Below are positions 36,313-39,978 of a stretch of DNA of 64,000 bases, one piece after another. The notes under the pieces were generated by a model. It was not told the origin of the DNA. It saw nothing but the letters and a program-made list of their open reading frames with translations, and did no database searches. A program made the position numbers and the translations under genes. Positions within the stretch are counted from its first letter, which is position 1, and the number at the start of each line of letters is the position of its first letter. The stretch spans positions 124,001-188,000 of the forward strand of contig CAIRCN010000074.1 of the NCBI GenBank assembly GCA_903877135.1, read 5' to 3'. The stretch comes from an uncultured Opitutia bacterium. GTDB taxonomy: Bacteria > Verrucomicrobiota > Verrucomicrobiia > Opitutales > Opitutaceae.

Positions 36313-37959
<1,647 letters not shown>

Positions 37960-37988: not shown

Positions 37989-38018
37989 AAGGCGCGCTCT
38001 TCGGAGCGCGCCTTTTTT
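37989..38018 (+). terminator. Rho-independent terminator after groEL
   Basis: A GC-rich perfect 9-bp stem, GGCGCGCTC (37991-37999) with GAGCGCGCC (38004-38012), closed by a TTCG tetraloop and followed by TTTTTT. Two A bases before the stem could pair with the first two T. It ends the groES-groEL transcript and separates it from pduS. Confidence 0.93.
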
Positions 38019-38100
38019 GTCATAGCCTGCCGCCCATGGCCGGTTCGCGCGCTTTGTATTGTGCAACGCCCCGCGACCGCCCATAAACCCGTATTTCCCG

Positions 38101-39417
38101 ATGAATCTCGTTGAACAGGTCCGGCAGGCCGGGGTGGTGGGCGCGGGCGGGGGCGGTTTCCCGACCCACGTCAAACTTGCGGCCAAGGCGGACACCGTCA
38201 TCGCCAACGGCGCCGAGTGCGAGCCGCTGCTCCACAAGGATGCCGCGCTGTTGGAGGGTCAGGCCGCCGCGGTGGTCGAAGGCCTGCGGCTCGCCATGGA
38301 AGCCGTCGGCGCGACGACCGGCATCGTCGGTATCAAGGCTAAAAACAAGCACGCCGTCGAGGCGGTGCAGGCGGCGTGCGCCGGCAGCCCGGTCCGCGTT
38401 CACCTGCTCGGCGACTATTATCCGGCGGGCGACGAATACGACTTGGTCCACGAAACCACCGGCCGGCTGATTCCGCCGGGCGGGATTCCGCTGCAGATCG
38501 GCGCGGTGGTCGCCAACGTCGAGACGCTGATCAACATCGCAGCCGCCGCCGCTGGCCGGCCCGTGACGCACAAGACCCTCACTGTCGCCGGCGCAGTTCG
38601 CTCGCCGAAGACCATCGTCGTGCCGCTCGGCACGAACCTGAGTGAGTGCGTGGCCGCCGCGGGCGGTGCGACTGTGCCCGATCCCGTTTTCGCCATCGGG
38701 GGCATGATGATGGGCGAAACGAGGGAGAGCATCGACCGGCCGGTCACCAAGACGACGGGCGGCATCATCGTGCTGCCGCGCAGCCACCGCATCATGGAGC
38801 GCAAGCTCAAGCCGGCCGTGCAACAGAACGCCATCGGCAAGTCCGCCTGCGACCAATGCCGCTATTGCACGGAGTTTTGCCCGCGCTACTTGCTCGGCTA
38901 CGCGGTCGAGCCGCACCAGGTCATGCGCAGCCTCGCGTTTACCGGCACGGGCGCGGCGCACTGGAACCAGTGGGCGACGATGTGCTGCGCCTGCGGGCTC
39001 TGCACGCTGTTTGCGTGTCCCGAGGAGCTGTTTCCCAAGGAGGCCTGCGACCAATCCAAGGCCGAGATGAAGCGCGCAGGCGTTAAATGGTGCGGTCCCA
39101 CCACCGTGAAGCCGCACCCCATGCGCGACGGTCGCCGCGTGCCGATCCAGTCGCTGATGCGCAGACTGCACCTCGGACAATACGCACATCCGGCCCCACT
39201 GGATCCGGCCCCGCTCGAGCCACTCTCGGTCATTCTGCTCCTGAAGCAGCACGCCGGTGTGCCCGCCTTTGCGCTGGTGAAAACCGGCGACCGCGTATCC
39301 GCCGGCCAGCCGGTGGCGGGTGTGCCCGAAGGTGCGCTCGCCGCTGCTTTGCATGCGCCGTTTGCCGCCGCCGTCGCCGACGTGAGCGACCGCGCGATCA
39401 CACTCAACCGTAACTAG
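38101..39417 (+). CDS. pduS: PduS-like SLBB/4Fe-4S flavoprotein (microcompartment redox protein)
   Basis: A 438-residue protein of the RnfC-like PduS family, reported as a cobalamin reductase in diol-using microcompartments. The N-terminal glycine-rich stretch VGAGGGGFPTHVKLAAKADTVIANGAECEPLL binds flavin/NADH, an SLBB domain follows, and two [4Fe-4S] sites are clear: Cys250/253/256/260 in CDQCRYCTEFCP and Cys295/298/301/306 in MCCACGLCTLFACP. A terminal barrel-sandwich domain (residues about 375-438) closes it. It is 9 bases before pduT. None of the usual diol dehydratase or shell genes flank it. Confidence 0.85.
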   Translation: MNLVEQVRQAGVVGAGGGGFPTHVKLAAKADTVIANGAECEPLLHKDAALLEGQAAAVVEGLRLAMEAVGATTGIVGIKAKNKHAVEAVQAACAGSPVRVHLLGDYYPAGDEYDLVHETTGRLIPPGGIPLQIGAVVANVETLINIAAAAAGRPVTHKTLTVAGAVRSPKTIVVPLGTNLSECVAAAGGATVPDPVFAIGGMMMGETRESIDRPVTKTTGGIIVLPRSHRIMERKLKPAVQQNAIGKSACDQCRYCTEFCPRYLLGYAVEPHQVMRSLAFTGTGAAHWNQWATMCCACGLCTLFACPEELFPKEACDQSKAEMKRAGVKWCGPTTVKPHPMRDGRRVPIQSLMRRLHLGQYAHPAPLDPAPLEPLSVILLLKQHAGVPAFALVKTGDRVSAGQPVAGVPEGALAAALHAPFAAAVADVSDRAITLNRN

Positions 39418-39426
39418 TCCGCTGCC

Positions 39427-39978
39427 ATGAACGACAAATCCGTGGGCCTTCTCGAACTCTCCAGCGTTGCCGCCGGCTTTGTGGTCGCCGACACCGTGCT
39501 GAAGGCCGGCAACGTTCGGCTCATGCTCTCGCGCTCGATCTGCTCGGGAAAATACATGGTGCTGATCGCAGGCGAGACGGCCTCGGTCCAGAGCGCCGTG
39601 GATGCCGGTGTCGCCGCGGCCAACGGCTGCCTGATCGACAACTTTGTCATTCCCAACATTCACCCCGATGTGATCACTGCGCTCGGCCGCACACAGATGA
39701 CGCCGCCGGAAGGCGCGCTCGGCATCCTCGAATCCTTCAACGTCGCCACGCTGATTCTCGCGGCGGACCACGTCGTGAAGACCGCCGATGTGCAATTGCT
39801 CGAAGTGCGGCTGGCGATGGCGCTCGGCGGCAAGGCGTTTCTCACGCTGACAGGCACCGTTTCGTCCGTGCAAGAGGCCATAGCAGCAGGCCGCGCGCTG
39901 ATCGCCGATTCCGGCACCCTTGTGAACGCGGTCGTCATCTCGCGCCCGCATCCCGACATCTACCGCGAACTCGTTTGA
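39427..39978 (+). CDS. pduT: Tandem BMC-domain shell protein, PduT-like
   Basis: A 183-residue trimeric-type (BMC-T) shell protein with two BMC repeats: residues about 5-90 (VGLLELSSVAAGFVVADTVLKAG) and 95-180 (LGILESFNVATLILAADHVVKTA). The pore-loop cysteine of PduT, in the Salmonella ICPGK motif, is kept here as Cys39 in SRSICSGKYM. In PduT this Cys from three subunits holds a 4Fe-4S cluster in the central pore. Together with PduS it would form an electron conduit across a shell. No hexameric or pentameric shell genes are in the window. Confidence 0.87.
   Translation: MNDKSVGLLELSSVAAGFVVADTVLKAGNVRLMLSRSICSGKYMVLIAGETASVQSAVDAGVAAANGCLIDNFVIPNIHPDVITALGRTQMTPPEGALGILESFNVATLILAADHVVKTADVQLLEVRLAMALGGKAFLTLTGTVSSVQEAIAAGRALIADSGTLVNAVVISRPHPDIYRELV

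Follow-up and report, generated by a model that had tools for sequence, protein, structure and literature searches.

A pduS–pduT pair beside groEL in an Opitutia genome is a probable satellite locus of a PVM-type bacterial microcompartment

The window analyzed here (the whole stretch of 64,000 nucleotides) contains two adjacent genes, pduS and pduT, separated by exactly 9 bases and located downstream of groEL. The features of this region are the following:

36313–37959 (+): groEL, flanking gene outside the module
37989–38014 (+): hairpin resembling an intrinsic terminator, 3' of groEL (11-bp stem, then T-run)
38019–38100 (+): 5' region of pduS, without a copy of the operator-like motif TTTTGG(A/T)AGA(T/A)
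38101–39417 (+): pduS (ATG at 38101, stop ending at 39417), predicted FMN/2x[4Fe-4S] NADH oxidoreductase of 438 aa, assigned by Pfam domains and identity to Salmonella PduS
38848–38880 (+): codons of PduS C250xxC253xxC256xxxC260, first 4Fe-4S motif (82/82 sequences including the window)
38983–39018 (+): codons of PduS C295xxC298xxC301xxxxC306, second 4Fe-4S motif (82/82 sequences including the window)
39427–39978 (+): pduT (ATG at 39427, stop ending at 39978), tandem-BMC (BMC-T) shell protein of 183 aa, assigned by two PF00936 domains, TIGR02526 and PDB relatives
39541–39543 (+): codon of PduT Cys39, position of the pore Fe-S ligand (84/84 other PduT sequences)

The domains of PduS follow the order Complex1_51K, SLBB, Fer4_17, RnfC_N (Pfam), in agreement with the domain list given for PduS in PMC6325248. 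The protein is 41.7% identical to annotated Salmonella PduS at 99% coverage, and its best relatives in the PDB are RnfC proteins. Residues C250–C260 and C295–C306 form the motifs CX2CX2CX3C and CX2CX2CX4C, with the same cysteine spacing as PduS from Citrobacter freundii (PMC2982820). NADH oxidation and FMN binding are predicted for the window protein. PduT consists of two BMC domains and matches the solved PduT structures 3nwg, 3pac and 3n79 over its full length. It also aligns in full with the NCBIfam model TIGR02526 (eut_PduT), with a score of 130.8 bits that lies below the cut-off of 250.3 bits, and by this model would be classed as a divergent PduT homologue rather than an equivalog. The sequence around its pore cysteine, C39-S-G-K-Y, fits the pore motif of a cysteine followed by P/S/A-G-K-Y/F (PMC6325248). 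The Fe-S cysteines and Cys39 are invariant among the 82 PduS and 85 PduT sequences compared, so chance is not an issue. The preliminary description had recognized a PduS-like protein with both 4Fe-4S sites and a PduT-like tandem-BMC protein with pore Cys39 in a two-gene unit, and all of this is borne out; loss of the cluster site in close relatives, which would have spoken against that description, was not found.

The domain order, both 4Fe-4S motifs, the tandem BMC protein with its pore cysteine and the gene order are the same as in the PDU microcompartments of Salmonella and Citrobacter. Unlike these systems, the window pair lies outside any pdu operon, and its apparent partner is a locus without B12-dependent diol dehydratase. 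A further difference is a second cysteine of PduT, Cys68 (39628–39630), which is kept in 82/84 relatives and is missing from the aligned PduT sequences of the PDB.

Upstream, the pair is flanked by groEL, and downstream by a protein of the metallo-beta-lactamase (MBL) fold; a regulator of the Rrf2 family is encoded two genes downstream. The earlier assignment of the flanks was thus correct for groEL and for the MBL fold; the label PhnP-like is weak, because other MBL families score much higher. The hairpin with T-run also occurs 3' of groEL in those relatives where the groEL–pduS gap is readable to the groEL stop, which makes read-through from groEL unlikely. By this signal, the hairpin at 37989–38014 is predicted to separate groEL from pduST transcription and to leave the pair as its own transcription unit.

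The host genome (G000), 97% complete, is available as a draft in 87 contigs. Apart from the pair, BMC-H and BMC-P are each encoded three times on another contig (C42), and a further tandem BMC protein is encoded on contig C53. The locus on C42 (L008) reads PduL, BMC-H, BMC-H, AckA, BMC-H, BMC-P, acylating aldehyde dehydrogenase (AldDH), BMC-P, BMC-P, class II aldolase and a member of the lactate/malate dehydrogenase (LDH/MDH) family. With BMC-H, BMC-P, AldDH, PduL, AckA and class II aldolase together, this is the gene set of the PVM-type (Planctomycetes-Verrucomicrobia) microcompartment as set out in PMC4207490. The triple BMC-P and the LDH/MDH-family enzyme also agree with PMC4207490, PMC8217296 and PMC8857213, as does DeoR, which is present in relatives of the window genome. 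At the PVM locus of the host itself no deoR gene was found, and the best match elsewhere in this genome is 44%. The PVM locus on C42 contains neither pduS nor pduT, and a genome-wide search for a second pduS gave just weak partial matches. The pair had been described as standing alone, without other microcompartment genes; this view finds no support, since the genome search proposed at the time found BMC-H, BMC-P and AldDH genes in a complete PVM locus. In contrast, the suggestion that a microcompartment is encoded elsewhere and that the pair is its satellite redox module agrees with the PVM locus on C42, and with relatives in which pduST lies next to such a locus. A BMC locus with its own second pduS–pduT pair, which would have argued against this suggestion, was looked for in G000 and not found.

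With regard to the substrate, a search of the host genome for the isomerases RhaA and FucI gave no match, while controls did. A RhaI-type isomerase is present (TIGR02635, 492.9 bits, cut-off 531.35), for which reason rhamnose is the likely substrate. The gene for this isomerase lies on C53, about 25 kb from a second satellite (L009:8154-8795, minus strand) that codes for a 213-aa tandem BMC protein distinct from PduT. Beside the gene for this protein are those for an aldolase of the HpcH type, a 2-hydroxyacid dehydrogenase and an SDR, together with a sugar isomerase-like gene. The same BMC-T and HpcH genes recur in three relatives (L182, L189 and L190), there next to a compact locus that combines three BMC-H and three BMC-P genes with an aldolase. 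This locus lacks AldDH, PduL and AckA; it represents a variant made of shell and aldolase in which aldehyde oxidation is not evident. Yet another arrangement, with the order BMC domain gene, BMC-P, AldDH, BMC-T, BMC-P, was seen in L055, L056, L214, L215, L216, L217, L219 and L220; its BMC-T is 25–29% like PduT, and no PduS was seen there.

Scanning 84,980 species genomes gave 80 loci that were kept, nearly all of them titled Verrucomicrobiota or just bacteria. PduS adjoins PduT in every relative as far as the contig reaches. The preliminary description had called for a comparison of pduST locations among Verrucomicrobiota. Among the 84 loci with complete PduS, PVM genes lie beside the pair in 31, including those of the same-family genomes G066, G302 and G312. 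In 13 loci, all from Opitutia, groEL and/or the downstream MBL gene are near the pair, in the dnaK–groESL vicinity as in the window. Neither neighborhood was seen in the stretch read of the remaining 40, several of which end at contig ends. The PVM-adjacent pairs occur in two arrangements: either deoR-pduS-pduT is divergent from pduL, with a deoR–pduS gap of 18 bases in L047, or pduST is found directly 3' of the aldolase. In about 22 of the PVM-adjacent loci, pduS and the divergent pduL have a DeoR gene between them, and deoR is often retained upstream of pduL at the PVM locus of groEL-type genomes. No third partner of pduST is conserved among the loci other than DeoR, which is confined to the PVM-linked ones. 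One genome, G084, contains a divergent pduST (L052:8517-10400) of 46–50% identity, on a long branch and far from its own PVM locus.

The vicinity of groEL in 13 loci and the nearby Rrf2-family regulator could suggest that the pair is co-transcribed or stress-induced with groESL and aids an Fe-S or redox stress response. We regard this as very improbable, given the terminator 3' of groEL in the window and in relatives, a groEL–pduS gap that ranges from 118 to 5242 bases among relatives, and the location of pduST elsewhere in most of them. In the closed genome G241 the pair adjoins groESL, and a distance of 1.04 Mb lies between it and the PVM locus of the same chromosome; the separation is therefore no artefact of assembly. 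Here, as in G000, a shell gene is found distant from the main BMC-H and BMC-P locus of the same genome. In this respect the pair resembles satellite BMC loci such as ccmK3/K4 of beta-carboxysomes, with the difference that the window locus carries a redox enzyme together with its pore protein instead of shell parts alone.

The link to a shell extends across the phylum. A whole-genome search of 50 genomes with PduT away from a PVM locus found BMC-P (PF03319) in all 50, in 49 above the cut-off, the one case below it being a fragmentary match. In 36 of these genomes the surroundings of BMC-P were read; within the reach of the contigs, the genes there follow the PVM order. In an even sample of the phylum, PF03319 occurs in 65/388 genomes and PduS (E < 1e-60) in 6/388; all six are among the 65, although they belong to one family, so that kinship inflates the association. 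Within this family, BMC-P is present in 15 genomes and absent in at least 20. Since four candidates were scored per genome in this sample, divergent PduS may have escaped the search. Most PVM genomes of the sample are without pduST, and therefore the pair is dispensable. Its coupling to a PVM shell is well supported. The alternative that the pair functions in the absence of a complete shell, raised in the preliminary description, would require a free flavo-Fe-S oxidoreductase on small cytosolic assemblies of PduT. Physical distance from other shell genes and a transcription unit of its own after a terminator are what this idea would predict, but BMC-P accompanies the pair in each of the 50 unlinked genomes and wherever the pair occurs in the phylum sample, and its address alternates between groEL and PVM loci inside one clade. 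We therefore consider such a role quite unlikely.

A tree built from joined PduS and PduT places the 13 groEL-type pairs in one Opitutia clade of 21 (13 groEL, 7 PVM, 1 other; SH-aLRT 99), and the groEL label requires 3 changes on this tree compared to a shuffled mean of 12.4. Because both addresses interchange inside one clade, the pair has moved between them; since this is a quick tree with many open forks, no direction of the move is claimed. By this reconstruction, pduST appears to be a satellite locus that relocated while its PVM partner remained constant. Decay of the pair after relocation, which its distance from its locus and the missing deoR of the G000 PVM locus might suggest, is contradicted by two intact reading frames and by the retention of every cofactor cysteine and of the tight spacing across the clade, and has a negligible probability in our view. 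Relocation may also have uncoupled pduST regulation from the PVM operon. The motif TTTTGG(A/T)AGA(T/A) is found upstream of pduL with 9–11 of 11 positions in 11/12 genomes; upstream of satellite pduS just 7–9 of 11 positions match and no operator shared with pduL was found, in a contrast that is biased by derivation of the motif from pduL regions. We treat this uncoupling as a lead. Most of the genomes examined have operator-like repeats, possibly DeoR sites, upstream of their PVM operon, for example at L008:2976-3091.

Taken together, we consider it likely that the pair forms a satellite locus to a PVM-type microcompartment, in which PduS and PduT export electrons from lumenal NADH. Most likely the organelle of this host degrades rhamnose- or fucose-type sugars, and the pair is a displaced part of it. 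In the PVM shell, PduT would make up a minority of the trimers and bind an Fe-S cluster at its pore through Cys39, with PduS docked at the lumenal face of PduT. The class II aldolase would release L-lactaldehyde from 6-deoxyhexulose phosphate, and the acylating AldDH would convert lactaldehyde to lactyl-CoA, producing NADH in the lumen. PduS could then pass electrons from NADH via FMN and its two 4Fe-4S clusters to the cluster of PduT and on to a putative cytosolic acceptor, so that lumenal NAD+ would be recycled without reduction of lactaldehyde to propanediol. Insertion into the shell, the direction of electron flow and the cytosolic acceptor are, like export through PduT itself, what we infer from this arrangement. 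A precedent exists in C. freundii: its PduS, an FMN/2x[4Fe-4S] protein dependent on NADH, binds PduT, and an exit of electrons from the compartment has been proposed (PMC2982820). Known PduS proteins have oxygen-labile clusters (PMC2982820), which counts against our model and is at odds with the aerobic breakdown described for PVM compartments in PMC4207490.

Electrons might instead flow inward or to a partner in the lumen, with PduS in the PVM shell as reductase for an encapsulated flavodoxin-type or cobalamin partner. Proposals of this kind exist for microcompartments of the PDU and glycyl-radical types; the PduS known so far acts as a corrin reductase, and in glycyl-radical compartments PduS has been proposed as NADH:flavodoxin oxidoreductase (PMC6325248). 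However, the PVM locus on C42 encodes no radical enzyme and no B12 enzyme, and a search of G000 for diol dehydratase (PF02286), for which no control genome carries the family as a positive control, gave no match. We thus judge this direction to be unlikely, if clearly the most probable of the alternatives. A close parallel to electron export in a PVM compartment is offered by the GRM5 fucose/rhamnose glycyl-radical microcompartments, since PduS/PduT are part of all 57 GRM5 loci in a review of these systems (PMC6325248). The GRM5 loci share with our case the adjacent pduS–pduT, independence from B12 and a class II aldolase (PMC6325248, PMC4207490). They differ in that the PVM locus is without glycyl radical enzyme and the window pair is a distant satellite.

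For PVM compartments, the in-locus LDH/MDH-family enzyme has been proposed to recycle lumenal NADH (PMC4207490), and PduS–PduT fits as a second NADH exit beside it. G000 keeps the in-locus LDH as well as pduST, and therefore NAD+ recycling by the pair may be redundant. In-locus LDH is rarer together with PduST (10/43 PVM loci of PduST genomes versus 14/28; Fisher p 0.024, kinship ignored). Replacement of LDH by pduST was considered and rejected, as this is a trend alone and G000 has both. PduS and PduT are not among the PVM parts in the main texts of PMC4207490, PMC8217296 and PMC8857213, and text searches of open-access papers gave no description of the two proteins in PVM compartments.

The passage of electrons across a shell by way of PduT is still an open issue, and in PDU it is complicated by the involvement of PduS with B12. 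A PVM locus without B12 or radical enzyme would make PduS–PduT a cleaner test of electron export. This question bears on redox balance in the Verrucomicrobiota, which are major consumers of fucose and rhamnose polymers. As a tentative view, which we hold as a real possibility rather than an expectation, the PVM organelle would be redox-open in a large part of this phylum, with PduS–PduT wiring lumenal NADH to a cytosolic acceptor. Oxidation of lactaldehyde to lactate could then be complete, in place of a split between lactate and propanediol. In Opitutia, this wire would have moved out of the organelle operon and free of its regulator, and may be expressed independently.
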